This document shows positions 19,601-64,000 of a stretch of DNA of 64,000 nt, one piece after another. Within the stretch, counting starts at the first letter, position 1. Each line of letters opens with the position of its first letter. Both the position numbers and the translations under genes were made by a program. Below the pieces are notes generated by a model. That model was not told the origin of the DNA. It did not search any database and saw only the letters and a list, made by a program, of their open reading frames with translations. The DNA is taken from assembly GCA_009192285.1 (NCBI GenBank), contig WBVU01000019.1, forward strand, positions 951,379 through 1,015,378, given 5' to 3'. This DNA is from Morchella semilibera. Lineage: Eukaryota > Ascomycota > Pezizomycetes > Pezizales > Morchellaceae.

Positions 19601-20214
19601 GTTGGTGATAGTGATTTCAGTTCATTGCATAGCTTCCTCATTTGAGTGACATCTTGCCAACCCAGCTGACCAAGTGTATCCTGTCTACCAGAGATACTGC
19701 GCATCATGAGTGCGACGAGAATCCCACGAAATGGGTGGCTCGATGGCACCAAATCGAGCGCAACCTTTAGAGCGTCAATTGACCGTTCAACATCGGTTTC
19801 GTCATGACTCCATTTGAATCTCTCAATCAGATATGCCCCAAGCCTAACTAGGTTGGACGTTAGCAGTGGAACTTGTTGATCCTCTTGCTCAATAATTTCT
19901 ATGGCCTTTTGAAGGTCTTCCGGCTGCGTCTTGTCCATGTGCCTACGGTAAAGCACATCGGCTGTCCACTGCGCTCTCCAGATCCACCGAATATCCTTTC
20001 TTCTTCCGGATCCATGTAGGACTTGCTCTTTGAATTGCTCAAAGCTAGGCGGCGGGGGGAAAGGGTGAGTGTATTGTTTCGCGTGGTCCTGCATCGCCTT
20101 GTGCGTGAGATAGAATCGTGCTTCGTTGCGTTCTATAAGAGACGAATATAGGGTATCGATCAAGTTGTCGATACCTTTCATATACACGAAGACCGTAGGA
20201 TATTCGCTCTCCAT
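16684..20214 (-). CDS. TPR-CHAT caspase-like peptidase with internally duplicated CHAT segment
   Basis: One intact frame of 1176 residues, the best preserved large gene in the window. Residues about 90-460 and beyond form TPR-like helical pairs, seen as repeated R-F/Y-x-x-L-G-x-x-x-D-L-E-x-x-I-x-x-x-x-x-A units. The C-terminal part, from about residue 730, is a CHAT domain of the separase/caspase clan. Its catalytic His is H953 in HFACHGF and its Cys is C1079 in YLSACST; it ends with PFIHTGA, the same ending as the pseudogene at 1475-6719. Oddly, the His-Cys spacing is about 126 residues, against about 50 in that paralogue. Roughly 79 residues between them look like a duplicated strip (FACHG-x5-DPFNS against YACPI-x5-NPFNS) in which the second copy has lost the His-Gly. 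Homologous TPR-CHAT proteins act as proteases in bacterial defence; the substrate here is unknown. The start at 20214 is the first in-frame ATG. Confidence 0.9.
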   Translation of the reverse strand: MESEYPTVFVYMKGIDNLIDTLYSSLIERNEARFYLTHKAMQDHAKQYTHPFPPPPSFEQFKEQVLHGSGRRKDIRWIWRAQWTADVLYRRHMDKTQPEDLQKAIEIIEQEDQQVPLLTSNLVRLGAYLIERFKWSHDETDVERSIDALKVALDLVPSSHPFRGILVALMMRSISGRQDTLGQLGWQDVTQMRKLCNELKSLSPTTGLSALALGATSMLDGTCKTSDPRVEDIDQGIGLLQEVIKYLPPDDYKRGKYLSEMGFALIRRFELSKVLSDINTAVDLFYEVVKEGRGDQSVRLSGLGLAFLKRFRVLGDAADLEKCILQFEEAVKLGISDGKARSAMLAELSGVVYMRYLRLGEVPDLERSIDLSRRALRAMPDDHDLESYNQLEYTLAIKSSMLYRITKPTRSLRQAENKRENIDSALKITRELLRKVPYGAPERFDLLSSYNSLLGDHGYFCEQTADTLLERIHIQEERFVLIPPEDDFERLESSAEIATDWCTYHIVWHRSQPLDVLNAKETYKLCKMVLRSKLARPASRIMCSFLAASVLFTCPEHFGRQKRWDKVFKVCAEGIAVLPTKVPQYCQRNHRHREQIDGQTLGSMAVSAGINAGKTAYQCAAVLEQSRGIILGFTIDCRSTTENLQELRTINPELFDRFNTLRSHVDSPIEPREELLSRFPIDTSTLKPRVMQENLKRQRMSNVDELAKTVQEIRAYPGFERFQLPPSYEELVEVAKDGPVVMEVCTVTRSDAIIITRSCIKSIPLPDLTHAVACRRIKELNTKIIPGGRTSYRSRSAKLEKFLLWLWDAAVEPVIEELKIQGIVSSGHSKLPRIWWIGADIMGLAPFHAAGDHSPGSTRNTLAHAISSYIPTLKALSYARERPLTFPQGDSSLLIVSTPKVRGQSRLNSVDGEVKSIVNLSPEWVKTEVLNSPSTNEVLEKLPSFNAIHFACHGFSNTNDPFNSHLLLRDLENCTSGVDRLSAEAISDFVLDKPETAYMLPPGFKSENLQGLSADETHERLVSLGAIPYACPIYSDQNNPFNSLSLPARGDTYGIDKLTAGAISDINMEQAQIAYLSACSTARIASRELADESVHIASAFQLAGFSHVLANMWPSDDDACLNVTTEFYRNLFESDLSESDCGHRRVGAAFHYAVKKLRDSSWREPLLWTPFIHTGA

Positions 20215-39490: not shown

Positions 39491-42400
39491 ATGGCGTCTG
39501 CCATGTACGCAACATACATGATGGGCAGCCTTCCGAGAGAAAGCCGTATGGAGCGTCGTGAGAGGGAGCTTCGGGAGCAGCGGGAGAGGTTCGCGACATT
39601 ACAAAATATGACGGGACCCAATCGTGATGAATACAACCATCAACCCATCGACAAACCACCCCCGCAGAAATCAGCAGTGCCCAGGAAAGAAAGCCGTATG
39701 GACCGTCGTGACAGGGAACTTCGGGAGCAGCGGGAGAAGTACTTGACATTACAAGTGATGGAGTCCGATAGCGATGAAGACGGCCATCAACCCATCGACA
39801 AACCACCCCCGCAGAAATCGGCAGTGCCTAGGAAAGAAAGCCGTATGGAACGTCGCGACAGGGAACTTCGGGAGCAGCGGGAGAGGTACTCGGTATTACA
39901 AACGATGGATTCCGATAGCGATGAAGACGACCATCAACCCATCATTAGCGAAACTGATGACAATCACAGAATATCCCCTGAGTTGGATGAGAAATGGTCC
40001 TCTGGGAAACTTGCACGCAGCAGCAAATCGCCCCCGCAGAAATCGGCAGTGCCCAGGAAAGAAAGCCGTATGGACCGTCGTGACAGGGAACTTTGGGAGC
40101 AGCGGGAGCAGTACTCGATATTACGAATGATGGAGTCCGATAGCGATGAAGACGACCATCAACCCATCATTAGCGAAACTGATGACAATCCCAAAATATC
40201 CACTGTGTTGGATGGGGGGTGGTCCTCTGGGAAACTTGCACGCAGCAGCAAATCCCCCCAGGAATCGGCAGCGCCCAGGAAAGAAAGTCGTATGGAACGT
40301 CGTGACAGGGAACTTCGGGAGCAGCGGGAGAAGTACTTGACATTACAAACGATGGAGCCCAATCGCGAAGAAAATGACCATCAAACCATCGACAAACCGC
40401 CCCCCCAGAAATCGGCAGTGCCCAGGAGAGAAAGTCGTATGGAACGTCGTGACAGGGAACTTCGGGAGCAGCGGGAAAATTACTTGACATTACAAATGAT
40501 GGAGTCCAATCGTGAAGAAAACGATCATCAATCCATCGACAAACCGCCCCCCCCGGAAATCGGCAGCGCCCAGGAGAGAAAGTCGTATGGAACGTCGTGA
40601 CAGGGAACTTCGGGAGCAGCGGGAGAAGCACTTGAAATCACAAATGATGGAGTCCAATCGTGAAGAAAACAACCATCAATCCATCGACAAACCGCCCCCC
40701 CGGAAATTGGCAGTGCCCAGGAGGGGAGGTCGTATGGGACGTCGTGACAGGGAACTTCGGGAGCAGCGGGAGAAGCACTTGACATCACAAATGAGGGAGC
40801 CCAATCGTGAAGAAAAGGACCTCATCCTGGATAAGGAAGGTATCTCAACGCCCTAACACCACCAAGAGTGCCCCCCCCTAAATGGTCGACATTTTTGCTA
40901 ATCTCTGGCAGGGCCCATAGCAGCTGAGCAAGAGGTGCCAACACTGGAAAGGACAGGCAATGTGCCTAGTGGACACACGTCCGAAAAGATCAGGACGCCT
41001 TCAAAAGCACAGCCTGAATCTGCCATTAGCGCAGATATTGAGCAAACACTTGATGGTATGTCGGGCATTTGAATCCACGTTTGAGGCCGATATTTCTCCT
41101 CCTTCAAGACAGTCGCCTCTCTAACCATTACCATCTTGGTGTATACATGTAGAAGGAGTGCTCGATTTCTTTGACCTCGGCGTGCTCGACGTTTGCGGGA
41201 AGGCCGGAAGGCCTAAACTGGCCAGCGGTGGTCTTGAGACAATCTTAACGGGTCTTATTTCCCACGAAATCCAGGGGATCTACTTCAATCCTACCCTCCG
41301 CTTTGTTTCCTTACCCAGGCTCATGTCGGGCATGAGTGGAAAAATCTTTGAAGAGTTTTTCGATTGGCTCTCAATGAAAGGGGTGACCGCTATAAACGGA
41401 GATCAAGATTCAGGATACCGGTGATAATGCACATGAGCATATCCAGAGTGCACTGAGGGGAGGGTATCGTACGTTACGGTTTGCTGGGATCAAAAGATTT
41501 TGCTGGTTGAATAAGGACATCGATCCCGTGATAATCGAGGGGATGCTGCCGGAGGTGGAGGAACTATGGATAGAATGGAACGAGCATGTGCCAAAGCGCT
41601 GGGAGAACAAACTTCAGAGTTTTGAAAAGGTACCCCCATAGCCACCGGTTCTTTACTCTGATATCCGACATACTAATAAACTAAATCCCAAGCTTACGAA
41701 GGTCCATATCGTACTGAGACCAGGTCCGGCTTTTCCATCAGCAGCCTTAGCGAAAAAGGATAGTGAAGATGCGGCGTTGTACTGTAAGCAGATAAGCTGC
41801 GGAGGCGTCGCCGCCGATTGTGTAGAATACAGGCTCGTTTTTCCAGCTAAAGATGACAATATACAAGAATCTGTCGACACAACATTCAAAGGAGAACCTA
41901 TAGACGGGTTAGTGGTCTACCTCTTACTTACCTTGTATTCCGTCATTGACATCGCACGGAAATAGAAACATAGATCCGTGGATAAGATCCATGCAAGAGG
42001 TCACCCGAACGGATCCCATAATGGAATATCGTCAAAGGTCCGGTTGGTTGAAGGGTGTGAGGGTGGCCATTCTTGATAGCGGGATTGATATGTTTAACCC
42101 CATCTTTCAAAAAAGTGTAGTTGGACGAAAGTCATTTGTGGGGGACGCTCATGACTTCCTTGATCTGGATGGTCACGGAACACACATAGCTGGGCTGATT
42201 TTGAAAGTAGCCCCCCACGCTGAGCTTCTCATCGCGCGCGTTACAGGTGACCAGGGAAAGTTTCCGTCAGCCGTCATAAAAGAGGTATGTTACGACACTA
42301 CTAGCCGCCGCAGTGGTGATAAAACTAGTAGACACTAAAGAATTCGCGAGAGGTAAACAGGCATTGGCGTGGGCTAAAGATCAAGGAGCTGATGTTATAA

Positions 42401-44913: not shown

Positions 44914-47549
44914 GGTATGATCCAGCTAGCTAGCTCTAATTCCAAAAATATATTCTATCTATTTTTGTCTTTGCTACTATATCGAACGAGGGGCCTTTGG
45001 ACGTACCGATTATGTAACGATCGGACGGGAGCGGTAATATATATGGCTAATATTTGCAGCAGCTTGCAATGGTGTCCTCCCATCCCGTCCGGGGTAAGTT
45101 TGTAGCGTGCAGCGCAGCGCTATACCTTCCCTAGTTGAGTATAGAACTCTACCTGGGTTGGGGGACTCGGAATGTAGAAAGCTCTTGTCAACGGGAACGC
45201 GTGAGGAGTTTTCTAGCTCAAGATTGTATATCGTCAGGTGAGCATTACTGCGCAAATACCCACAAAGACAGGAGTGAATAACTTGGGTAATATCTATGAT
45301 AGCGCTTGTCAGAATATTCTACGCGTTCCTGGCGTTCCTGTTATACCAGTTGGTTCCTTGACTGGCTGAGTCATATTACCGTCATGGTATATCACTTGGG
45401 TATCGAGTCATGAAGTAGCACTCGCTATCCCGAGTGACAATCCATGATGCATTGTTGTCGTGAACCTATACTATTGTGGTTGTCAATGGATTGATATACT
45501 ATCCTGAAGTCGGTCACGTCATATTACTCATGCCTAGGTAGAGGCGTTCTTTGACTAGGAAATACCAGTCCATCATTACGTACTCCGTAGCTTGGTCAAC
45601 GCGGAATAATCGGACGAGTTTATGAGCTAGGAGACCTGGATGATAAAACACCATGACCGATACTAGCTAGGTATATTATCTATCATTAGCTTGCAACACT
45701 TAATTCAACACACACAAGGGAAGCCTCCCGTCTGTTCGTGTCTTGGCAGCGAGTGATGTCGTATGATGCACATTCCCGTTGATTTGGTCTGCAAGTGGTC
45801 GAGAATGCCTCATTAACGTACAAACAGGAATCGAGCACGCTAGACACCTTCCGTTTTATCATATACCCATCTTGTGAACCCAAGAACCTACCACACGCAA
45901 CGACAATAGCTCTCATAAATATGCTTCGGAGGCGGATTACCGGCTTTCTTCTCGGGGTTTCTTGCCGGTGGCCTTGGCTCCATGAGGCTCATGCCTATGG
46001 ATCTAGGGCTAGTGGGGCCTAAGGTAGGGCTAAACGCTGCGTGGTACCTGGCGGGTGTATTTGGGGAGGGGGTGGTCTGTATTATATATTCAGGTTTATA
46101 TCCTCACCAACTCATCTACGTGTATGTACTTAGATTATAGTAGATATAATAATGAAAACTACTATGTAGTGATAGGGAAAGGACGAAAGATCTCAAGGAT
46201 CTGTCTCGGGACACGGGAAAAGGCAATAGATACCTAGAAACAAATAAGACAATAGAAAAGATTCTAGCCCCAAGATTTCGTTAAAATACGAGTGATCAGC
46301 TGTGATTAAGATCTGAAACCTCGTCCCTATCCAGTGCCCGACCCCGGTTATAAGATCACTGTCCCAAGCCCGCATTATAGAGATTTCCGAATAGTGATGG
46401 GCATGAGACTAGACACGGGTAGATTGATGGTGGCCTGGTTCTGAGGTAGTCAAGAGACGCAGATTATAAGTGCTTATATTGGTCGTGGGAAGGGAGATGG
46501 AGCTTACTCTTCCAGCTGATATAATATCTAGGTCGTATTAAGACAGCTTTCATGACAGCCATTCTCCTTGCTTTTCGGTTCGGGCAACTGGAAAATAAAT
46601 TGAAATAACCCTAACCCTGGTGATGATTTATATCTACTAATTTCGGAACGTTTTTGCGCGTATTAGCACAGCTTGGGGGAAAGGCGGGGCCGCATGCCGG
46701 ACTAGATACCTGTCTCATCGTTCGGCTATTATATGATCTGTGTTTAACCTTGCGGTACCGCACAGACTATATGTGCCCACCGGGTACATGAGAGCTACCT
46801 ATCTGGCCATGAACGATCTCGCTCGAGAGGTGAGCTCTAGCGATAAACTGGGGAAAAGTTGTTACACTTGTGATATTATTGAGGGGTAAGGGGCTAGCCG
46901 ACGCCTCTGCATCCATCCCGGTCCTGGTTCTCAATCCATGAGCGCTGGACAGATTGGCATTTTTAACGGTTAGGTCATGTCTGACAACAAGGTATATATC
47001 GAGATTACTATAGCACTGTTGTGTTTCAAAGTTTTTACATGCATCTTTGAACCATTGTGTGGAGTTCTTGAGCATATAGGCCAGACAACTGAGACATGTC
47101 TCTAATAGCAACTAACAGCATGACACAGAACTAGAGTGGGAAACTCGGTCCACTCCAACACCACGGGCCGGTCCCAAATCTCCGCCCATGGCCGCCCGCG
47201 TCCACGTACCGGAGGGTATGTACTTGGGCGCATCACCGATGCTCACCCCCGTGGTGCCCATGTGCCTCTTCAGGTAGCTGTAAAGATGCTACCCCTTAGT
47301 CTCGTACCCATCTCTACGGGCAACACGCTGCTCACCGTCGGGTCTGGAACATTACCTTACCGACAAGTGTCGGAAAAACATATTGCTGGGATGACTGGTT
47401 CCCTTCTCTCTTCATGTTTGACGAATTTCCACCTGTCCTTGGCGTCTTCCAGTATTTTTCCCTCTGGTCAACTTTCGATCTTCTAACCCTTGCTGTCTAG
47501 GTCCTGTTGCCTTATCTGAGGGCTTCCTTATTTTTGTTTGAGGAATGAT
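44914..47549. other. Intergenic, no gene seen
   Basis: About 2.6 kb with no convincing gene. The telomere-like AACCCTAACCCTGG lies at about 46607-46620. Confidence 0.4.
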
Positions 47550-47860
47550 TCCTGGTTTTGTTTGCCGTTGGGAGAGGTTGGATTAGGCTGCTTTGAGTTC
47601 TGGGGTCCAAGATTGCTTTGATTTGTGGGAGAGTTTGATCATTGGGACAAATTGTTTAATGAGGTTGCCAACAGCTTCAAGTACGAAGTCAACCGATTGT
47701 GAAATATGGTCTTGGATTTCCCGGTGGGGGTGCTATATTGGCAAAGCTTGGGCTAATGGCGTCCCAGTTGGTTGTTGCAGGCGGGTCTGGGAACAAGAGC
47801 GGATAACACTACTAACAAAGAAGAGGGAACAAAATCGAGCTCGGATAATGCAAGGCGAGC
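47550..47860 (-). mobile_element. Old Tad-like LINE relic, minus strand (left part of split target)
   Basis: The minus strand reads, across frames, ISPSFANI, ISQSVDFVLEAVGNLIKQ and PMIKLSHKSKQSWTPELKAA, the end of a LINE endonuclease and the linker leading to reverse transcriptase. Stops and frame changes show long decay. It is cut at 47860 by the younger plus-strand LINE. Joining across the insertion (57753 onward) keeps one minus-strand frame open (NTVFRPARLALSELDFV), which fits a continuous target before insertion. Confidence 0.65.
47849..47860 (+). repeat. LINE target-site duplication, left copy
   Basis: TGCAAGGCGAGC, identical to 57741-57752 just after the LINE A-tail. Confidence 0.8.
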
Positions 47861-50598
47861 AGTGATAATGGAAGTGATTGACCAGGGGAATCTTACACTT
47901 ATGAACGAACCAGATAGAATTACCTGGCAAAGGGGTAGACAAAGTTCAGTACTGGACCTCTCCTTTGCAACACAAGCGATAGCGTCGAAGATCCGATGGA
48001 AACTACGGGCGGACTGCGATACGGGATCAGATCATGCAGTATGCGAAACAACAATCTTAGATGCCCGGGTCAACACATATGAAGCTACGTCGTGCCGATG
48101 GGACTACAGAAATGCGGATTGGGAAAAAGTTAAAAAAGGTATTGAGGAGGAAAAGAAGAGAACCGAAGAGGAATGGAAATATGCAAAGGAAAATGAAGAT
48201 TGTGAAATGCTCGCCGAGCTATTGGAAAAGGTTATGAGAAAGGGCATAGAGCAAGGGGTGAAGGAAGTTAGAAGATGCCCACAGAGTAAGAAATGGTTCG
48301 ACGAGGAGGTAAAGATGAAGAGAGGGGTGATGGCAAGGAAAAGAAGATGGGGAAAGAAAGGCATTCCGGGATCAGAGATGAGCATGAGTAGAATAGGAGA
48401 ATGGAAGAAAGAAAGGACGGAGTATTTTCAATTGATCCGGAGAAAGAAAAAGGAGTGCTGGGATAAGTTTGTGCAGAGCTCGGAGGAGGGTAATTTGTGG
48501 GATGTATGGAGGGTAGCGTCGCAGAAAAAATATGCCAAAACACCGGCATTAGTTATGGATTCAGGCGAGGTTAACGTAACCTTCGAAGAAAAAGAAAAGG
48601 TTTTTCTTAAGGAGCTCTTTCCACCAACTCCCCCAGATCCTCCAACAGTCGAAGGCGAAAATGTTAACAAGTCGAGGATTCAAATATCAAACGAACAAGT
48701 ATATAACGCCATTTCTCGACAGGGTTCGTATAAAGCTCCAGGACCTGACGAGATAGCATTTAAGGCTATAAAGGAAACATGGGAGTCTATGGGCGAGAGA
48801 GTAACAGAAACATATCAAGCGTGTTTGGATGCGGGCTACCACCCTCGAAGATGGAGAACGGCAATTGGGGCGATTATACTGAAAGCGAATAAACCGGATT
48901 ATACAAAACCAAAAGCATATCGACCAATAGCGCTTTTAGGTACGTTGGGGGAGGGACTTGAAAGGTTGGTTACCGATTATTTGGCGGATTTCAGAGAAAA
49001 AGGAGGATTGGATAGAAATCAATGGGGTGGAAGAAAATCGAGATCGGCGGAAGACTGCGTGGGTTACACGTTAGATTGGATGGAAAAAAGAAGGGAGAAA
49101 GGCGAGAAGGTAATGTTGGGTAGCGTTGGATGTATCGCAGGCTTTTCTCAATACCTCAAAAGTCAGATTGACAAATACGCTCAAAAAGGGAGGTGCGAAC
49201 GGAAGAATTGTAGAGTGGGTATCAAATTTTTTAAGCGAAAGAAAGATTACGCTGAGGTTTGATAATGAGAAAGGGACGGAAAGGGAAGTGGAAACAGGGA
49301 TACCGCAAGGAAGTCCGGCGTCGCCTATATTGTTTAATTTGTTTATCGCCCCTATGATAAAGGAAATAAATCAACTCATCGAGAAGGAATTCGAGGGGAA
49401 AGCAATTACGCCAACATATATAGGCGATTTTACGATTGCAGTGGCTGGCAGAGATTGGGAGCAGGCGATAGTCAGAGCGGAAAAAATTATTGGGAAAGTG
49501 TATGAATGGGCGTCTGAAAATTGTGTGCAATTCGACGAAAAAAAAATGGAATGGATAAGGCTTTATGTGGACGAGGAAGAGGAGATTGAAAGTTTGGAAT
49601 TGCCGAATGGAATTTTGAAGTAGGAGCTGGAAGTGGTAAAATGGCTGGGGGTTTGGATTTATCGGAAGTGCTCTTTTAAGAGGCACGTAAAAGAAAAGAC
49701 GGCAAGAGCGGCGAGAGCGGCACAGAGCGTCATAAGACTATCCAGAGGAAGTCAAGGAATAGGAGTGGGAAATGGCAGACAAATGTATATTGCGTGCAGT
49801 AGGCAGATTGCAGAGTATGGAGGAAAGGTCTGGTGGAAAGGACAAAAGGGTTGGCAGCGGAGATTGACAAGGTGAATATAAATGCAATGAGGAAAATCGG
49901 AGGGCATTTTAGGACAGCCCCAAGGGCGGCGGTAGAGGTCGAGAACGATATGATACCCACGGCACAAAGATTCGACCATAAACAAAGAATGATAGCAATC
50001 AAAGCCCTGCAGAAACACCCGAATCATCCGATATACACGGCGGCCAAAAGCGAGATAGAAAATATTGTTCAGAAAGAAGAAGAATGGTCAGCAGAAAGAG
50101 GAGGTAGGGTTAGAAAGACAGGAAGGAAGAGAGGGATGTCAGGCGCGATAGAAGGGGTTAGGAAACTACTAGGGGACAAAGGAAAATGGAGTAAGATTGA
50201 AAATTGGAAAAAATTGTATAAAAAGGAAGAAAGATGAGAAGAGAAAATTAGAAAGGAAACACAAATTGAAATTAGGGCGGCCGATGAGATGGAAATGAGG
50301 AGACAAATGGCAAGAAAAGAGGAGGCGAATGAAATTGTTATGTATAGTGACGGGAGCAAAAGTCTAGAGGGAGAAGCGGCGGCAGGAGTGTGTAGGTTGG
50401 GGAAAAATGGAGAGGTGCTGAAGAAAGTGGGGTATAGGCTGGGAAGGCAAATGGAGATTATGGATGCCGAGATGGTGGCAATAAAGAAAGCGATTGAAAT
50501 AGGAATGAAGGAGGCCCAAAGAGAACGAAAACGAGTTATTACGATCAGGGTCGACAGTCAGGAGGCGATGAAAAGGATCGAACAGCGGAGAGCAAGGC

Positions 50599-51080
50599 TA
50601 TCACGGCGTGGAACATGATTGTAACGTTGCGGGAAGAAGGATTAGTCAGGGTTTTCTATAAGGTTCTATGGGTTTCTGCTGCAGGGCGTTATGAGGTAAC
50701 GGTGCGCATGTATTGGTAATCGAAGGATTTCCTTTAGGTTCTATGGGGTTCTATGAGATGAGTCAGCGAAGGATGGCTAGGGCTATATATAGGGAGCTCT
50801 TTCCCTCGCTTGTAGAGTTTTCCTTTCTTCTCTTTCTTCTTTACGCAACCTTCCTGTCCCTTTAGTCAGTACTGTACTTTCGGATCTCTGGTCTCGACAA
50901 TAACCCCTCCGGGGATTTCGCTCTACCTCCATAGTTCCCGTGATCTTTATTACCTCGTGTCCTCGTTCTTGGTTATTCCCGTACCCCCTACCTCGCTCGC
51001 CCCGTCTCGCTTCGCTCTGCTTCCCGCCTCGGTTGTGTACCTTGGCATCCCTGATTACGCCTTCGAACTACCCCGTGATA
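50599..51080 (+). repeat. 5' LTR of Gypsy chromovirus
   Basis: 482 bp, TATCACGG...CCGTGATA. Contains a likely TATA box (GGGCTATATATAGGGAG, about 50781-50797) and a pyrimidine-rich stretch downstream, consistent with the U3/R boundary. Confidence 0.95.
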
Positions 51081-51086
51081 CTAAGG

Positions 51087-51103
51087 TGGCGTCTCCAACG
51101 CCA
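51087..51103 (+). promoter_or_regulatory. Candidate primer-binding hairpin
   Basis: Six bases after the LTR lies TGGCGTCTCCAACGCCA. It begins TGG, as tRNA-primed sites do, but also folds on itself (TGGCG/CGCCA, 7-nt loop). It could bind a tRNA 3' end or be part of a self-priming structure, as known for Tf1/sushi elements. I cannot choose between these. Confidence 0.45.
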
Positions 51104-51153
51104 ACCTACACAACAAACCTCGCCTAGGACCCTACCATAGAAACTCTGTCACC

Positions 51154-52595
51154 ATGTCGCAAGAAGCTCAGATGACGGACCCGGAAGGGATTAACTATCA
51201 GCAACTAGTAGCAGACATGGATAGTTTTGTTACCAGTTACCCCAATGTCCCCCCAGGAGCCACCGACGAAGCCAAAAAAATGCATAAGTTAATGCACGAT
51301 GCCACCCACGCCGTTCACACTCTCCTGTCTGAACTTGATGACGTTACCGAAGAAGCCAAGGAAGCAACTAAGGAATGGCAAACGAGAGTGTCAGAACAAG
51401 GAAGGGAGAATCAAGACCTGGAGAAACAGGTAACTAACCTGGAAGGGGAAGTTACTCGCCTCCAGGCCGAAGTTACCCAAGCAAACCATGCAACTCAAGA
51501 AGCAGAAGCCGCCCTGGCAGCCCAAATTGCTTTGCCCCCTCCTCCAGTCGAACCTATTGTACCACCACCACCACCTCCAAGGCGACCTAATCGTTTCTTG
51601 CAAGGCTTCGCCCCCGTCCCCGAACCCCGTAGGGAAAAGTCAGAGAAACTTCCCGACCCGGAGAAATACCGTGGAAGCAGAAAGGGACTCCCACAGTTCC
51701 AGAACATGTTGAAACTCAAGCTCTTGGGCAATGCCGACCGGTACCCCACCCTTCAGAATCAACTAACCTATGCTATTTCTCGCTTGGAAGGCCCTGCCGC
51801 CGACCAATTTATGCCATATATTACCACTACTGGGATCAATCTTTCCTCCCTGGAAAGGTTTTTGAAATTTTAAATACAGCATTCGGGGACCCGGATCAGG
51901 TAGGTACTGCCCGCCGTGCCCTTAGGAGAATTAGGCAACTCAATCGCCCCTTCTCGGAATACTTCGCCGAGTTCCAACGTTACGCTGCAGAGGCAGGTAT
52001 GGGAGAAACTGCCAATGTGGAAGCCCTTATGGAAGGACTGAGTGAGGAACTCACCAAACTCATGGTCAACAAGGAGACTCCCGCTACCGTCATCGAACTC
52101 GCTACCATTCTCCAACGCTTGGACAACAAGCAGCAGATGATTACTGCTCGCTACCGCCCTTGCTACCAGCCCCCCACACCTCACGTTCGCCCCACACCTC
52201 GCTACGTTGCTACCGTTCCCCCCGCACCTCGTTACTAGGCCCCAGTGGCTCCTGCACCTCGGTACTCAGCTCCGCCCCCGCTTACACCTCGCTACCAAGC
52301 CCCCGTTCGCCCTAACCCTCCTGCTGCTCACCCGTCTCATACGCCAGGAGGAGTGGCCCCTATGGATTTGTCGTTTGGTCATGGCCGCCCAGACCCTCAG
52401 GAAAGAGAGGCCCGTCGTGTGGAAAATAGATGTTTTTATTGTGGTCAGGGAGGACATTTGGTAAAGGAATGCCCGCAGGCGCCGGCTCCTAGGAACCCAG
52501 CCCCCAGGATGAGGGGAGCTAGGGTGGAAGTTAGAGAAGAAGAAGAAGAGAAGGCCTCCGGCGATGAGGCGTTAAAAGATTTTACCCTGGACTGA
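51154..52595 (+). pseudogene. Gypsy gag (broken)
   Basis: ATG 51154 (MSQEAQMTDPEG). A coiled-coil stretch (about residues 75-120) and a Pro-rich linker precede the capsid-like region YRGSRKGLPQFQNML...RYPTLQNQLTYAISRL. The frame ends at TAA 51871-51873, and homology goes on one frame over (LNTAFGDPDQVGTARRALRR), so an indel lies near 51850-51870. A TAG at 52236-52238 interrupts a Pro/Tyr/Arg repeat (PAPRY) where CAG is expected. A CCHC zinc knuckle (CFYCGQGGHLVKEC) follows. The gag stop is at 52593-52595. Confidence 0.85.
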
Positions 52596-52599
52596 GTGG

Positions 52600-55500
52600 C
52601 TCACTCCAGGAGCGATTTAAGGATTGGTTTAAGCTTTCGCTTTCTGGGTTTTCAGTTTCGGAAAAGGATATGGATGGGAATCAATTAGTAGTAAAGTGTT
52701 TAATTTCTCAAAATAAAGATCTCTCGATTCCATCATATGCCCTTATTGATACTGGCCCCTCAGGATACGCTTTCATAGACCAAGACTTCGTATGCCACCA
52801 CAACCTCACTACCATTCCCCTCCAAGTTCCTCGCCATATAGATGTCATAGATGGCAGACCTATTGAATCAGGAAAGGTCACACACAAAGTTATTCTCAGT
52901 CTCGACATTAATGGCCATCGAGAGGAAGCCCCCTTTTTTGTCACACAACTCGGACACTATCCTATTGTTATGGGACTTCCATGGATGCGCAGACATGCAA
53001 TAAGGATTCTTCCTGCTGTCAATAAGATACATTTTGATTCTCCCACCTGTACTATGTATTGCTCGGTTGATCAGACAAAGGTCGTTGCTAAAGGAATCTC
53101 TACGGAGCCCCTAGCTAAACCTATTACCAATATTTCGGCTATTGAATCCTATGCCTTTCATCGTTTGATTAATAAGAAGAGGAAAGGAATGAGACTATAT
53201 TCCACTACTCTTAAGGCTCTGGATGATCTCTTAGCACAACCCCCGAAGGACCCTCACGCCCTAGTACCTAGGGAACATTATCAATACCTTCATCTTCTTA
53301 ATGAACCCGAAGCCTCCAAACTACCTCCTCATCGATTGGAATACGATTTAGCTATTGATATCCAAGATGGAAAAACGGCACCATTTGGACCTATGTATGG
53401 GATGACCCGATTGGAATTACAAGCGCTTCGAGATTATCTGGCGGAATATTTGGCTAGTGGGAAGATTCGACACAGTACATCGCCAGCAGGCTCTCCTGTA
53501 TTGTTTGTCAAGAAGGCCGATGGCTCCCTCCGACTCTGTGTCGACTACAGGAAGTTGAACGCGGTAACGGTCAAGAATCGACACCCTCTTCCACTAACAC
53601 CAGAGACTTTTATGGGTATCTCCTCTGCCAAGTACTTTACCAAATTGGATCTTCGCAACGGGTATCATCAATTAAGAATCAGGGAAGGATACGAGTGGAA
53701 GACGGCCTTTCGCACTCGCTACGGCCATTTTGAATACACCGTCATGCCGTTCGGACTTACTAATGCCCCCGCCGCATTTCAACATTGGGTCAATGATATG
53801 CTACGTCCTCATCTCGACCACTTTGCCACCGCTTACCTCGATGACATCCTTATATACTCGGCTACCCTCGAAGAACATAAGAAACATGTCGATAAGGTCC
53901 TTCGGATACTCGATGAGAATCAGGTGCATCTCAAGCCCGAGAAATGTGAATGGCACGTCAAGGAAACAATGTATCTAGGCTTTGTCCTTACCCCGGAAGG
54001 AATTAAGATGGACGATGCAAAGGTAGCAACTATTAGAAACTGGGAGACTCCAACCTGTCTGAAAGACGTACAGGAGTTTTTGGGATTTACGAACTTCTAC
54101 CGGCGATTTATCTATGCGTACTCAAGGGTAGTATCTCCTCTGACCGCTCTGACAAAGACAGGAGTGGTATTCAAATGGACAGACAAAACGGAGAAGGCAT
54201 TTCAGGATCTCAAGCTCGCATTTACCACGGCACCCATACTTAGGCATTTCGATCCACATCAGCAAGCTCAACTTGTGACTGGAGTCTCCCAACAGTCTCC
54301 TGGGTCTCCTGAGACTCTCCTGAGATTCCTGGACATTTTTTGAGTCTCCTGAGGCTCAGGAGACATCAGGAGACAAATGAGGTCTTGCTGATGCAGATCG
54401 GGAGATTATAGTAGAAACGGACGCCTCCGACTAAGTCTCAGCTGCTATTATGTCACAACGGGACGACGAAGGAATTTTGCACCCAGTCGCCTTTTTCTCC
54501 AAGAAGCACACGCCAGCAGAGTGTAACTATGAAATATACGATAAAGAGCTTTTGGCAATTATTCGGGGATTTGAAGAATGGCGTTATTTTCTGGAAACAG
54601 CCTCATATCCTATCAAGGTTCTCACAGACCACAGGAACCTGGAATACTTCATGTCTACTAAGCTGTTAAATCGTCGACAAACTCGTTGGTCATAATTTCT
54701 ATCTCGCTTTGATTTTGTTATTCAATTTCGTCCAAGCAAACAGGGAGGTAAACTGGATGCACTTACTAGGCGATCAGGGGATCTCCCTAAGGAGGGGGAT
54801 GAACGCCTTGTGTATCAGTATCAGACCGTGTTGAAGAGAAAAAATTTAGATAATAAGCTAAGTTTGTTGGCGGGTTCTTTGGCAAATGAACCCGCTGAAG
54901 GAATGCCCACTGTTCAGGAGTTATTTACAAAAGCTTACCAAGAAGATAGTTTCCCAAACAAGGTGCTCACGATGCTGAAAGACGGCACGAAGCAATCGAA
55001 ACAAATTTCCCTCGCCGAATGCGCCGAGAACAAAGACGGACTTCTTCTATATCGCCGCAAACTTTTCGTACCAGAACATGAGGAGTTACAACTCAGACTT
55101 CTTCAGGAATATCACGATAAACCATCAGCGGGACATCCGGGTAGAGCAAAGACCCTAGAGTTACTCAGTCGCGAATACTACTGGCCGAACATGCGGAAAT
55201 ACACTGACCGCTATGTTATGAACTGCCACACCCGCCGCAGGAGCAAAGCAAATCGCAATGCCCCTCAAGGAGTTCTTCGCCCTCTCTCAGTTCCTAAAGC
55301 ACCATGGACAGATGTCTCGATGGACTTTGTTACCGGTCTACCTCTTAGTGATAATTACAATGCCATTCTCGTTGTTGTCGACCGCCTCACAGAAATGAGA
55401 CACTTTATTCCATGCACTGAAGAATCAGGAGCTAGAGATGTTGCTCGAATGTATCTGGAAAATGTATGGAAACTACATGGTCTTCCGGAAAAGATAGTGT

Positions 55501-56374
55501 CGGATCGCGGTACTCAATTTACCTCGGATTTTTGGAAATCGCTATGCGAGCGCCTCGAAATCTCTCCCCGTTATTCTACCGCGTTTCACCCCCAGACAGA
55601 CGGTCAGACCGAAAGGATTAATGCCATCATGGAACAGTATCTTCGAAGCTATGTGGATTATCAACAGGATAATTGGGCCACCTATTTACCTATGGCAGAG
55701 TTCGCCACCAATAATCATGTTTCCGAATCAACCAAGTTCTCTCCCTTCGAAGCTAACTACGGCCGTCATCCTCGCATGAACTTCGGTCCTTTACGACATG
55801 GCACTACCACGAATGAAGACCAGGCTAACACGATGGCAAGAGATATGTCAGAAGTGTTTGACTTTCTTCGAGCGGAAATGTTCAGAGCCCAACAGATCCA
55901 GGAGGAGTCTGCTAATGCCAATCGTATTCCGGCACCACGCTACAGCATCGGGGATAAGGTATGGTTGTCTACCCGAAATCTATTGACCAAGCGACCATCA
56001 AAAAAGTTGGACTGGAAACAGGTCGGACCTTATCCAATCTCTCGTGTCGTTAGCCCTTATGCTTATGAACTCGCGCTACCTGCCTTAATGAAAATACACC
56101 CAGTGTTCCATGTTTCGCTATTATCATCTGCCGCCAATGATCCCGTCCCAGGTCAAATACAAATACCTCCACCGCCCGTTGAAATCGAAGGTGAACAAGA
56201 GTGGGAAGTGGATGCTATTCTGGACTCTCGGAAACGACGCGGAAGACTTGAGTATCTTGTTCAATATACTGGTTATGATGAGCCATCATGGCAACCCTAC
56301 GGCGACTTAGACAACTCCCCCGAGTTAGTCAGAGATTTTCACGAACGATATCCACGTAAGCCTAAGAGGACTTA
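52600..56374 (+). pseudogene. Gypsy pol: protease, RT, RNase H, integrase, chromodomain (broken)
   Basis: Pol lies in the -1 frame relative to gag and is open across the gag stop, which fits a frameshift-expressed polyprotein. Protease ALIDTGPSGYAF has Pro where Ala is usual. RT has LRLCVDYRKLN, YFTKLDLRNGYHQL and AYLDDILIYS. RNase H is cut by a 137-bp foldback at 54257-54393. Two TAA stops follow (after VETDASD at 54432-54434 and after TRWS at 54693-54695). Integrase has the DDE residues (DFVTGLP, SDRGTQF, TERINAIMEQ), but its HHCC finger reads NCHTRRR, losing one Cys. A GPY/F-type QVGPYPI and a C-terminal chromodomain (LEYLVQYTGYDEPSWQPYGDL) end the protein near 56374. Confidence 0.92.
54257..54393. 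mobile_element. 137-bp foldback/MITE-like element inside pol, family M copy 1
   Basis: Terminal inverted repeat CATCAGCAAG...CTTGCTGATG, flanked by a 2-bp CA duplication (54255-54256, 54394-54395). Removing the element and one CA restores FDPDREIIVETDASD, the normal Gypsy RNase H entry, so the boundaries are exact. The interior is palindrome-rich (CTCCTGAGGCTCAGGAG). Copies lie at 61902-62038 and 62308-62444. Confidence 0.92.
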
Positions 56375-56380
56375 GGCCTC

Positions 56381-56389
56381 AAAGGGGGA
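56381..56389 (+). promoter_or_regulatory. Polypurine tract of Gypsy
   Basis: AAAGGGGGA nine bases before the 3' LTR, the expected plus-strand primer position. Confidence 0.8.
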
Positions 56390-56398
56390 CCTAATATC

Positions 56399-56881
56399 TA
56401 TCACGGCGTGGAACATGATTGTAACGTTGCGGGAAGAAGGATTAGTCAGGGTTTTCTATAAGGTTCTATGGGTTTCTGCTGCAGGGCGTTATGAGGTAAT
56501 GGTGCGCATGTATTGGTAATCGAAGGATTTTCTTTAGGTTCTATGGGGTTCTATGGGATGAGTCAGCGAAGGATGGCTAGGGCTATATATAGGGAGCTCT
56601 TTCCCTCGCTTGTAGAGTTTTCCTTTCTTCTCTTTCTTCTTTACGCAACCTTCCTGTCCCTTTAGTCAGTACTGTACTTTCGGATCTCTGGTCTCGACAA
56701 TAACCCCTCTGGGGATTTCGCTCTACCTCCATAGTTCCCGTGATCTTTATTACCTCGTGTCCTCGTTCTTGGTTATTCCCGTACCCCCTACCTCGCTCGC
56801 CCCGTTTCGCTTCGCTCTGCTTCCACGCCTCGGTTGTGTACCTTGGCATGCCTGATTACGCCTTCGAACTACCCCGTGATA
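56399..56881 (+). repeat. 3' LTR of Gypsy chromovirus
   Basis: 483 bp, same ends as the 5' LTR. It is followed by AAGGC, the target duplication, and then by the resumed LINE RNase H. Confidence 0.95.
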
Positions 56882-57688
56882 AAGGCCAGGGAAAGAGATG
56901 GCACATAAAATTAGGTGGCTGTGTGACGCGGCGAGAACACAGAAAATGAGAGTGAGGTTAGAATGGGTAAAAGCGCACGAAGGGGTGTTAGGAAATACGG
57001 AAGCAGACAAAGCAGCGAAAGCGGCGGCTGGAAAAGGGACTGTCGACAAGGATTCATTTATATCGTTTTGCGCACCTACAACGGGAATCGAGAGAAATTA
57101 CCATTCGGGAATGGGAGGTAGATTGGGAAAAAAGAAGAAACAAAAAGTAGGCCTTGCTGGGACCTCAACAACGACATGAGATTCGATTCAAAGCCACTGA
57201 TAGAGCAAACCGAGTACTGATGTCCAGGTTACGCACTGGACATATAAAATGCAATGCATATATGTACCGAATCGGTAAAAGACAGTCGGCTGCATGTGAA
57301 TGCGGTGCCGAAAAAACAGGATGTCGAACATATTCTTATAAAATGTCCCTATACCGAGTCGAGTCGTCGTCAAAAAAAGGAGTTGAGAACAATGAGGGAA
57401 TTGTTATGGACAAAGCAAGGAATAGAGAAGGTTAGTAGTATATGGAAGCAGTGGAGAGGATACCGAGCGGAAAGAGGGGAACGAGGCGAGGAGGAGGAAG
57501 CGGAAGAGAATGAGCTGAGACAAGGCTGGGAAGATCCAGAGAGAGAGTGAACGGAGGATTAAATGGGAACGGTTGTTTTGTGTTTGTGTTTGTGTTTGTT
57601 TTGTTTTGTTTTGATTTGTTTGTGTTTTCTTTTGTTGAGTCTGGCGGCGGAAGGAGGGAAGTTCTGGGGATAAAATTGTACGATATCG

Positions 57689-57740
57689 TTATAGCCTCAT
57701 AGGCTGGATACGATTACTGATGTAAACAAAAAAAAAAAAA
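57689..57740 (+). repeat. LINE 3' terminal hairpin and A-tail
   Basis: TTATAGCCTCATAGGCTGGA, then a spacer, GATGTAAAC and 13 A. The same elements in the same order end the retroposons at 33618-33670 and 35537-35584. Confidence 0.85.
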
Positions 57741-57752
57741 TGCAAGGCGAGC
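57741..57752 (+). repeat. LINE target-site duplication, right copy
   Basis: TGCAAGGCGAGC, identical to 47849-47860. Confidence 0.8.
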
Positions 57753-58582
57753 GGGTCGGAATACGGTGTTACCAAGGGGCACAAACGATAACGTGATCAG
57801 AATATCCAAAGATAAAAGGGACAAAACCAAGTATATTCTCTATATGACAAGATGTTGCGTAAGGAGATAAGACAGGAGAAACAATCCCATATATATAATA
57901 CCCAAAATACTGATTACTAGTCCGTATAACAGAAACATATAGAAGAAAATACTCAGAATAACATAACAAAACCTGATAACCAAATAAAAACCAATGCCCG
58001 AATAACAAATAAGCAAAACCTTGATTAATAATCGCACTCTTTCGAAACTAACCTTACTCATGGTATGCCGTGACAATGTCCGATGCATGGAAAGGAGGGG
58101 GCGATGATGCAGTTTTATCGTCTATTACACCCTCCGGACATAAAGTATATGGTTATCGATTACCTACTCATAACCAAAGAACATGAGAGGGCATTCACTA
58201 TTCTCACCGAGTGGGACAAATCTCTTGCCGACTCTTTAATAGGAGCACTGAAGGAAGCGGAGGACGAACGGCTCTCTGATAATGGAGATTATCATTACGC
58301 ATGACAGATCAATCACCCAACCATATCGCTCGCGTCGCTTCCGTAAGGGTTGGTGGTGCAACAGGTCACATGATCGCTCTCGAGCTTAAGATTGATCCTG
58401 ATCCTGTTTTAGCTCTAATTAAACATATCTTTATATCTGTCTCCCGGGACCAATAATGCTGACTTACACCTAACATGCACTTTCTGCGCACATTACAGCT
58501 AATGGAATTCAGGTCCGCGCACGAATATACATACTAATCCACAGTCATGTGTATGGTCCGGCTCTGTGATTTTCCATTCCCC
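57753..58582. other. Mostly non-coding; right part of the old LINE target near its start
   Basis: The first tens of bases continue the minus-strand LINE relic. No other gene is secure. An open frame at 58083-58304 (plus, from ATG 58086, about 72 residues, with helical stretches HPPDIKYMVIDYLL and ERAFTILTEWDKSL) has no family I recognise. Confidence 0.4.
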
Positions 58583-61901: not shown

Positions 61902-62038
61902 CATCAGCAAACTAAACTTGTGACTGGAGTCTCCCAACAGTCTCCCGGGTCTCCTGAGAGTCTCCTGAGACCCCTGCATATTTTTTCAGTCTCCTGTGGC
62001 TCAGGAGACATCAGGAGACAAATGAAGTCTTGCTGATG
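61902..62038. mobile_element. Foldback/MITE-like element, family M copy 2
   Basis: CATCAGCAAA...CTTGCTGATG, 137 bp, colinear with the copy in the Gypsy pol. Flanks are TA and CA, so the 2-bp duplication is not perfect here. Confidence 0.88.
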
Positions 62039-62307
62039 CATCTGTGCATATGAAATTTTCATAATTGGTGTTATTCCATATGCTATTCACCGACTTCAAA
62101 GGTTTTGTTTTTGTGTTGGCTGAAAGGAATAGCGTAATATATACTACTGGTCTATATCAAATACGTGAAGTAATATACATTCATTGATAGCAATTAATAA
62201 TAGTTTGTCAGTAATCTGAGTTAAAAATATGACGGAGTAACCCAACACAAAGTAGAAGATGACAATGATGATGCAGAAGGACTCGAGAAGCACAGACAGC
62301 ACAACAA

Positions 62308-62444
62308 CATCAGCAAATTCAACTTCTGACTGGAGTCTCCCAACAGTCTCCCAAGTCTCCTGAGAGTCTCCTGAGACTCCTGGATATTTTTTGATTCTTC
62401 TGAGGTTCAGGAGACATTAGGAGACAAATGAAGTCTTGCTGATG
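62308..62444. mobile_element. Foldback/MITE-like element, family M copy 3
   Basis: CATCAGCAAA...CTTGCTGATG, 137 bp, flanked by AA on both sides (62306-62307, 62445-62446), which fits a 2-bp target duplication. Confidence 0.9.
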
Positions 62445-62449
62445 AAGGA

Positions 62450-62888
62450 CGCCAACGAAGGCAGAAGCCACATTGGTTAAGGACAAGTACAAATACCAAC
62501 AAAGGCAAAGGCAAAGGCAAAGGCAAAAAAGCGCAGGGTAGGAAAAGTGAGGACCGGATGAACCTCAACGAGAAGGATCAGAGGTACTATGGATTTCCTC
62601 TACAGAGGATCGAATCTTGGGTGCGAGGAACTATGGCTTAAAGATAGGACTATATTCCTATTTACCGAGATGAGATGAAGACGAGAAAGAGAGGAAAGAA
62701 AGAAAGAACTAAGGAAAACATCTATCCCCGCTATTTAATATTTCTCCTTCACCAGTCCAATATGACTCACACATTAGCTTATAGAAACCTATAGAAATCT
62801 ATTGCAACCACACCTCATATTCTTCCCCACCATTTCTTCTATTTACATTACCAATCCATTACGCCATCGAACATCCTAGAAACCAATG
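62450..62888 (-). repeat. Degraded LTR-like repeat, minus-strand copy of an inverted pair
   Basis: Its reverse complement runs colinear with 63370-63810: shared words include GATGGATTGG/AATGGATTGG, GATTTCTAT-GGTTTCTAT, AATAGCG, TTTTCCTT, TTCTTTCTTTC, TCTCGTTGAGGT and TTGCCTTTGCCTT. Confidence 0.7.
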
Positions 62889-63369
62889 ACAACACTCTCT
62901 CCTCAGCACACCCCTTCCTCGCTTAGCTTTACCTTAACATTCACAACAGCGCCCCGACTACTGAGCTCAGAACCGATGCCAAAATGCTGGGACAGTTTGC
63001 TGATGTCCTTGTTACCATATTGGAAGGTTTTGTAGATTGAAATTGTATAATTCTTTCTGCTATAGCGAGACATGTATCGGAAATGCATCGGAAATGCAGC
63101 AGTATATACATTATATAAACAGGAAACGTGAGCTTTGCATAATGAATCTATAAATGCATCTCATAATATATCAATAATGCATAACAGTCTCATTTTGCCA
63201 TAACCTGTAGATAATCTAACAACGCAAAAATATGTTGAAGATCTGAACTTGTGCAATATTTTTTGTCCCAGCGTCTTGGCATCGATCCCGATAATTCGGT
63301 AGTCGTAGCGCTATTGGGACGGATGGAGTTAGGTTAAGCGAGGATAGGGTGAGAGGAGGTGGGGTTGTC

Positions 63370-63810
63370 CTCATTAGGTTCTATGAAGTTCGATAGCGTG
63401 ATGGATTGGTAATAGAATTTGACGAAGTAGTGGGGAGGAATACGAGGTGTAGTTGCGACGGATTTCTATGGGTTTCTATGAACTGATGTATGAGTTATAG
63501 CAGACTAGTGGAGGAGAGGTGTTAAATAGCGCAGGAAGACTTTTCCTTTAATTCTTTCTTTCTTTTTTCTCTGTCTCGTCTTCCTGTTATCTCGGTACAT
63601 GGGAGTATACTCCTATTCTCATGCCATAGTCCCTCGTTCTCGAGATCCTGCCCTCTTTAAGAGGAAAACTCATAGCACCTTTCCTCGTTCTCGTTGAGGT
63701 CCATCTGGTCCTTAATCTCTCTGTCCTGTGCCCTTGTACCGTTGCCCTTGCCTTTGCCTTCACCAGTGCCCGCGCTTGTGCTTGCCCGGCGTTGTCCCTG
63801 TCTTCGTCGG
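63370..63810 (+). repeat. Degraded LTR-like repeat, plus-strand copy of an inverted pair
   Basis: Partner of 62450-62888. General layout (TTCTATG-rich start, pyrimidine-rich middle, CTCG-rich end) resembles the Gypsy LTR, suggesting a related Gypsy family. It may extend beyond 63810. Confidence 0.7.
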
Positions 63811-64000
63811 TCTCCTCATCACGTTAGCTGTGCTCTTTGGGTCCTTCTGCATCACCATTGTCATCTTCTACTTTGCGTCGGGTTACTTCATCACATTTAT
63901 CCCTGCAAGTGTCCCCCTATCTAAGTTATGCCAGTGTGGATAACTTATACTTTATCTGCTTAATATCCGGCTTAAGGAGATAAATCATCAGGAAAATCAT
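63811..64000. other. Window end, no gene seen
   Basis: A short open frame with a hydrophobic stretch crosses this end (63728-63943), but it overlaps the LTR-like repeat and has no family features. Confidence 0.35.

Follow-up and report, generated by a model that had tools for sequence, protein, structure and literature searches.

Three inserted layers can be read to the exact base in the 64-kb window (the whole stretch of DNA analysed here): a 5'-truncated LINE holds a chromodomain Gypsy element, which in turn holds a 137-bp inverted-repeat element. We propose, with a probability of about 0.93 and on the basis of sequence comparison, that three insertions account for the stack, with the LINE probably entering first, the Gypsy element second and the 137-bp MITE last. 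This order is backed by the target-site duplications, by the split protein domains and by empty sites in relatives. The stack offers a clean relative order and exact duplication lengths of three element types at one place. The features, from left to right, are as follows.

47849–47860, plus strand: left 12-bp target-site duplication of the LINE, TGCAAGGCGAGC; one of its two places in the window
47861–50598, plus strand: 5' part of the 5'-truncated LINE, with a remnant endonuclease, reverse transcriptase and the beginning of RNase H; from Pfam domains and relatives L018–L023
50594–50598, plus strand: left AAGGC duplication of the Gypsy element; not doubled in the LINE relatives readable here
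50599–51080, plus strand: 5' LTR, 482 bp, from sequence
51154–51873, plus strand: open piece of Gypsy gag; DUF4939 at E=1.4e-5 and 25.4 bits, below the Pfam cut-off of 29
52670–54254, plus strand: Gypsy protease, reverse transcriptase and start of RNase H; RVP_2 (below cut-off), RVT_1 (4e-35), RT_RNaseH_2 profile positions 1–26 (below cut-off)
54255–54256, plus strand: left CA duplication of the MITE, from sequence
54257–54393, plus strand: putative Plavaka-type MITE, 137 bp, CATCAGCAAG..CTTGCTGATG, with perfect 10-bp inverted ends
54394–54395, plus strand: right CA duplication of the MITE, from sequence
54396–56375, plus strand: remaining Gypsy RNase H (two stops), integrase and chromodomain; RT_RNaseH, Integrase_H2C2, rve, SH3_Tf2-1, Chromo
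56399–56881, plus strand: 3' LTR, 483 bp, from sequence
56882–56886, plus strand: right AAGGC duplication of the Gypsy element, from sequence
56887–57740, plus strand: 3' part of the LINE with an A-run; RNase_H profile 108–140, last 141 bp repeated
57741–57752, plus strand: right 12-bp duplication of the LINE, TGCAAGGCGAGC; the other of its two places in the window

The outermost element carries the endonuclease, reverse transcriptase, A tail and target duplication of a LINE. The 12-bp sequence TGCAAGGCGAGC occurs only at its two borders when both strands of the 64 kb are scanned, and is the 12-bp duplication that the initial annotation had given for a plus-strand LINE. The endonuclease begins at position 48 of 117 in the Pfam profile Exo_endo_phos_2, with a match that runs on by several residues into flanking sequence, and the reverse transcriptase is RVT_1. 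RNase H is split in two by the Gypsy insertion: its left part matches RNase_H profile positions 2–77 below the Pfam cut-off and RVT_3 just above that family's own, and its right part (piece 56883–57152) matches RNase_H above the cut-off. Fungal LINEs with endonuclease, reverse transcriptase and RNase H share this domain order, the A tail, the target duplication and the 5' truncation; the clade is presumably Tad1/I-like. The final 141 bp, whole or in part, match 39 other scored places. The LINE's own empty site was not seen because the outer flanks, when searched in the assembly, have no second copy beyond short stretches; the same search gave no second allele of the locus, both flanks matching just themselves apart from those short stretches.

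Within the LINE RNase H, the Gypsy element displays the organization of a chromodomain Ty3/Gypsy element: reverse transcriptase and RNase H precede integrase, the chromodomain lies at the integrase end, and paired LTRs, six substitutions and one 1-base gap apart, are flanked by a 5-bp duplication. LTRs, flanks, split domain and chromodomain are all as had been claimed for a Gypsy chromovirus at this point. Chromoviruses have the same reverse transcriptase, RNase H and integrase with a C-terminal chromodomain, a 5-bp duplication and a tendency to nest frequently. Whereas the usual LTR ends are TG..CA, those in the window, like nearly all copies of the family examined, end in TATCACGG..CCGTGATA. 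Six of eight non-self LINE matches (L018–L023) can be read across the insertion point and run on continuously without a Gypsy insert; L024 and L025 were left out because their match is only partial. Where LINE relatives could be read at this point, they have no second AAGGC. Across the Gypsy family, 23 of 25 insertions have an exact 5-bp duplication, the others being L103/L108, whose pairing may be wrong, and L095 (CCCAT/CCCCT).

The Gypsy RNase H is itself split, leaving a weak left part, by the 137-bp element, and here too the foldback with its CA duplication lies where it had been described. Folding of 54259–54395 beats 200 of 200 shuffles (z −3.9). Two copies elsewhere have exactly the sequence of this element. 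Of the 39 non-self Gypsy rows, 15 relatives were fetched, and none of them has the element at this site. Among 43 MITE copies (40 fetched and three in the window, with L058 and L059 included as counterparts on the near-identical contigs C10 and C9), the duplication is exactly 2 bp in 41 and 3 bp in none, and the duplicated sequence is not fixed. A Tc1/mariner origin was rejected: those elements have a fixed TA duplication, whereas TA, though the commonest, makes up 10 of the 41 here.

We propose a Plavaka-type (PlavakaB-like) identity for the foldback MITE, a likely assignment that draws on its 10-bp end, its 2-bp duplication and a sister family in the same genome. PlavakaB, of the CMCT clade, is described, in the part of the source considered here, as having termini CATCA..TGATG and a duplication of 2 or 3 bp (PMC12730594). 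The window element shares these termini, kept in 38 of 40 fetched copies (exceptions L069 and L090), and the 2-bp duplication, but it differs from that description in being 137 bp long and non-coding, with 2 bp in 41/43 copies and never 3 bp. Transposases of the Plavaka Pfam family are plentiful in the genome (128 matches), and the right end of one Plavaka family closes with the same 10 bp as the MITE. An end piece of 86 bp that closes with CTTGCTGATG gave 40 scored matches, 38 of them reaching the last base. Seventeen of the 40 (16 of 39 without the source of the piece) have a same-strand upstream PF18759 transposase match within 3 kb, in a pairing that used 71 of the 128 transposase rows, and the distance is exactly 2036 bp in six cases; the opposite strand gave 1, and random placement gave a mean of 0.08 and a highest count of 2, with sizes assumed for three contigs. 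This family, a sister family of the MITE, was seen at its right end, and most of its transposase matches contain a stop or may be cut by an intron. No coding Plavaka that carries the subterminal sequence of the MITE itself was found, and no ends of open-frame Plavaka copies were seen in L145–L147 or in 1.1 kb of extra sequence beside L146. One candidate found by eye, a MITE-type end beside a transposase match (C2:1542971), was rejected because it is a further short MITE, flanked on each side by CA, within a Plavaka relic. Mobilization of the MITE by a Plavaka transposase is predicted. The comparison reveals an abundant Plavaka-type MITE in this genome, and we make no claim that such MITEs are unreported.

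These features suggest the following course of events. A LINE would have copied itself into the locus, presumably by target-primed reverse transcription, with its 5' end cut within the endonuclease, its A tail kept and 12 bp of target duplicated. The chromodomain Gypsy element would then have integrated in the LINE RNase H through a 5-bp staggered cut, and the Plavaka-type MITE would have come last, landing in the Gypsy RNase H and duplicating 2 bp, a movement expected to require transposase supplied from elsewhere. Events like the second and third occur repeatedly in the genome, where the Gypsy family frequently enters other repeats and the MITE frequently lies within Gypsy and LTR sequence. 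It had been stated that each removal restores a reading frame in the host element; this holds around the junctions but not beyond them, the LINE, when compared with L020 from 48840 on, having three additional stops in frame as well as four 1-base indels, and the Gypsy element two stops within ~300 bp downstream of the 137-bp element.

It is possible, though rather unlikely, that the stack has four layers, the LINE having entered an older minus-strand LINE. Two short minus-strand pieces bear some resemblance to the endonuclease–reverse transcriptase linker of fungal LINEs. The three minus-strand frames of this stretch, however, gave no Pfam match at E≤1, though such a linker may lie outside Pfam. 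As a 62-residue protein the stretch matches only itself in the genome at E≤0.1, and as DNA the left flank (47150–47848) has no match elsewhere in the genome except within 47297–47366. The right flank, moreover, does not look like the second half of a LINE; its resemblance is to an LTR-like repeat and to another protein-like stretch of the genome. DNA, protein and Pfam searches therefore leave the minus-strand LINE relic reported at ~47550–47848 unsupported, and the order initially called unambiguous for four layers stands for the LINE, the Gypsy element and the foldback and is unsupported for the oldest layer.

The three-insertion account also fits how these families behave elsewhere. The empty sites of 12 of 25 Gypsy insertions span a reference repeat, compared with 4 of 200 control windows (Fisher P 3e-10), a count in which the repeat match of the window's own insertion is built in; without it the figure is 11 of 24 (P 2e-9). 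The controls come from just 20 hand-picked places, all four control matches fall in one of them, and the reference set is small; counted by place, the comparison is 11/24 with 1/20 (P 0.003). A match counted for an insertion at one or the other of two points separated by 5 bases, and for a control at one point; with the wider rule applied to the controls, their count is still 4/200. The sample comprises 40 of 332 LTR candidates scored (40 distinct copies behind 43 rows), of which 32 copies gave the 25 insertions; L005 (incomplete), L105 and L118 (no clean end), L094, L115 and L116 (counterparts on near-identical contigs) and L119 and L123 (partner LTR unlisted) were dropped. Reading of chromatin by the chromodomain may drive this preference for repeats. 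Unlike the present case, host elements in a plant survey, in the part considered here, were not commonly hit in their coding regions or LTRs (PMC6911290).

Gypsy or LTR2 sequence flanks both sides of 16 of 40 MITE copies, and two Gypsy insertions lie within the same MITE family (2/25 versus 0/200 control windows; Fisher P 0.012, a comparison chosen post hoc). That the two families target each other, the integrase preferring MITE hairpins or chromatin nucleated there beyond repeat-rich DNA generally and the MITE landing safely in Gypsy, seems improbable to us.

Still less probable is a special locus whose own sequence or chromatin draws repeated insertions. Three nested entries, the GCAAGGC common to the LINE and Gypsy targets, and the entry of a solo LTR into a related Gypsy copy (L029), ~10 bp away from where the MITE sits, would favor it. 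However, the duplications of the 25 Gypsy insertions have no common sequence by eye, and GCAAGGC occurs 10 times in the window, both strands counted. LINE relatives read GCAAGAC (L018, L019), GCGAGGC (L021) or GCCAGAC (L022) at the site, and the shared 7-mer is therefore no family feature. Because the Gypsy family nests elsewhere in the genome, as the MITE does, the locus, once called a repeated insertion target, is better taken as an ordinary product of a genome-wide habit of its element families. A misjoined assembly is most implausible of all: the LINE, the Gypsy element and the 137-bp element are all repetitive and their junctions are known from the assembly alone, but false joins would hardly be expected to give, at every inner junction, the exact duplication typical of that element's own family, with host sequence continuing at the next base in relatives.

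The three-insertion order thus stands, but absolute dates do not follow from the stack, which had been proposed to calibrate the age of the locus. The LTRs differ by six substitutions, the 137-bp element has two identical copies elsewhere, and neutral decay of the LINE is estimated at 2.2%, with a 95% range (−0.05 to 4.0%) that spans zero and comparison copies that are themselves partly decayed. RIP was rejected as a source of LINE divergence, the changes private to the window copy being balanced (A>G 82, G>A 81, C>T 45, T>C 45).

The initial annotation described four nested layers at this locus. Three of them (a LINE, a chromodomain Gypsy element within it and a 137-bp Plavaka-type MITE within the Gypsy) are exact to the base, whereas the fourth and oldest was not confirmed. 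The features of the window are as follows.

14674-15837, plus strand: host-like gene, F-box protein with ankyrin repeats
16684-20214, minus strand: host-like gene, CHAT-domain protein of 1176 aa
29472-31247, plus strand: host-like gene, TPR protein
39535-40826: direct-repeat block (copies about 80-93% alike) that overlaps an open frame
47849-47860 and 57741-57752: 12-bp duplication TGCAAGGCGAGC flanking the LINE
47861-57740, plus strand: LINE with one interruption, outermost of the three inserted layers
50599-51080: Gypsy LTR, 482 bp
54257-54393: 137-bp element with perfect 10-bp inverted ends CATCAGCAAG..CTTGCTGATG and CA on either side
56399-56881: Gypsy LTR, 483 bp
61902-62038: MITE copy, 92% identical to the first, flanked by TA and CA
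62308-62444: MITE copy, 90% identical to the first, AA on both sides

The plus-strand LINE is bounded to the base, as had been claimed, by the TGCAAGGCGAGC pair, a 12-mer found only at these two places within the window. The first domain that can be recognised in it is an endonuclease lacking its first half (the Pfam match starts at profile position 48 of 117 and spills a few residues into the flank), which indicates a 5'-truncated copy. The genome searched has 56.8 Mb in 23 contigs and is probably fungal, judging by its types of genes and elements. The 3' end of the LINE is a run of A, and in this genome the last 141 bp have at least 39 other matches, whole or partial, best-scored among 124 candidates that include the copy itself. 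Two LINE relatives, L019 and L021, carry short telomere-like motifs right behind the A tail (AAACCCTAACCC and AGGGTTAGGGTT) away from contig ends, and L021 bears its own MITE with AC on either side.

Within this LINE, the RNase H is cut into profile positions 2-77 on the left and 108-140 on the right; the left part falls under the Pfam cut-off, with RVT_3 just over its own, and the right part exceeds the cut-off. Between the halves lies an LTR-bounded element with AAGGC on either side, and because its interior holds gag, reverse transcriptase, RNase H, integrase and a chromodomain (Chromo, 4e-9), it is a chromodomain Gypsy, as first read. Six substitutions and a one-base gap separate its two LTRs. 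Among eight non-self LINE matches, two were left out as partial, and all six that could be followed across (L018-L023) run continuously without an insert; these are empty sites, and none is an intact LINE naturally holding the duplication twice. Among these LTRs and the copies L093-L124, a pattern search where the termini were expected gave TATCACGG as the start and CCGTGATA as the end of almost every copy examined; usual LTR ends are TG..CA.

The Gypsy RNase H is in turn split by the 137-bp element, and the reported foldback with a CA duplication is supported by its ends, flanks and empty sites: it is absent at this site in all 15 Gypsy relatives fetched (of 39 non-self matches), 13 of them continuous on both sides. 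One relative (L029, C3:1629121-1632423; locus 853-1490) has a solo LTR of another family, LTR2, about 10 bp upstream of the site, with CATTT on either side by eye; another (L037) has a different MITE about 70 bp upstream. As single-stranded DNA, 54259-54395, a segment also 137 bp long but offset by two bases from the element, folds better than 200 of 200 shuffles (z -3.9).

The element belongs to a large family. Its paired 8-bp ends have 46 forward matches, including a few other elements, against 14 for the reversed pattern, and a first look gave 968 candidates, of which the best 40 were scored. The same dinucleotide flanks 41 of 43 copies, and a three-base duplication flanks none. A fixed TA target is excluded by the mixture of dinucleotides (TA 10, GA 7, CA 6, AA 5, others), although TA is commonest. 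Near the two further copies in the window lie LTR2 fragments (62230-63895).

The ends of this MITE are Plavaka ends, because an end piece closing with CTTGCTGATG recurs downstream of Plavaka transposase matches. The transposase model has 128 matches in this genome, several of which have reading frames open for about 1000 aa, and none in 14 control genomes. An 86-bp end piece from a Plavaka relic (L149, C2:1541500-1543060), searched back against the genome, gave 40 scored matches, 38 reaching the last base; when 71 of the 128 transposase matches were used for pairing, 17 of the 40 (one being the source relic) were preceded within 3 kb on the same strand by a transposase match, compared with 1 on the opposite strand and a mean of 0.08 (maximum 2) under random placement. 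In six the distance is exactly 2036 bp, and in each of these six the transposase match contains a single TAG that may be a stop codon or intronic. The genome yielded no coding Plavaka that shares the inner sequence of the MITE, and the ends of the copies open for about 1000 aa were not found. PlavakaB families, as described in a fungal DNA transposon survey (PMC12730594), have 2- or 3-bp duplications and ends CATCA..TGATG; the family here differs in having 2 bp in 41 of 43 copies and 3 bp in none. Inside the relic L149 itself sits a short MITE from a sister subfamily, flanked by CA on either side.

Removing each layer was said to restore a reading frame, which holds only close to the junctions. 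Elsewhere there are further lesions: the LINE, read from 48840 on, contains three more in-frame stops and, compared with L020, four indels of one base, and the Gypsy has two stops within about 300 bp beyond the MITE. Changes private to the LINE occur at 197 of 2556 sites, split 46/41/110 by codon position, and suggest a neutral decay of about 2.2% (bootstrap range -0.05 to 4.0%, not distinguishable from zero), against an LTR divergence of 6/482. The direction of these two figures, and the identity of the MITE to two other copies over 137 bp, agrees with the layering. The stack thus gives the relative order that had been expected to calibrate the locus, but no absolute age.

Such nesting is a habit of these families. 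Of 25 insertions of the Gypsy LTR family that could be told apart, 23 are flanked by an exact 5-bp duplication. At 12 of the 25, the empty site spans a repeat from a reference set of a few repeats, compared with 4 of 200 control windows (Fisher P 3e-10); the window's own insertion is among the 12 by construction, and leaving it out gives 11 of 24 (P 2e-9). Since the control windows come from 20 places of our choosing, with all four hits in one, counting by places gives 11 of 24 insertions versus 1 of 20 places (P 0.003). Two of the 25 insertions lie inside the same MITE family as the window's (L007/L006, C20:2378526-2384647, CACAA duplication; L008, C15:357422-357889, CGGGA duplication), so that nesting runs both ways, and Gypsy or LTR2 sequence lies on both sides of 16 of 40 fetched MITE copies. 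The three-deep stack is the product expected from such habits: the nested insertions behind the proposed repeated target are real, but the same habits recur elsewhere in the genome, and a stack of this kind is ordinary. Of possible specialist interest are the mutual nesting of the MITE and the chromodomain Gypsy and a Plavaka-type MITE whose duplication is strictly 2 bp but varies in sequence. In plants, one survey (PMC6911290) describes nesting that rises with retrotransposon density and a weak palindrome preference; there, unlike here, coding regions and LTRs of host elements are not commonly hit. That survey cites a 2008 paper in which chromodomains reportedly direct integration to heterochromatin.

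The oldest layer, a supposed minus-strand LINE relic, was not confirmed; the right flank instead contains a stretch resembling an LTR and, at 58093-58300, a part similar at the protein level to a place on contig C23. At 57756-57793, 38 bp match a sequence present twice, 5 kb apart, on contig C2 beside Gypsy/LTR pieces. The two flanks searched gave no partner contig for C16, the contig of the window. In the contig pairs C9/C10, C12/C13 and C21/C22, by contrast, search hits sit at almost identical coordinates, as if they were two assembled haplotypes of some chromosomes.
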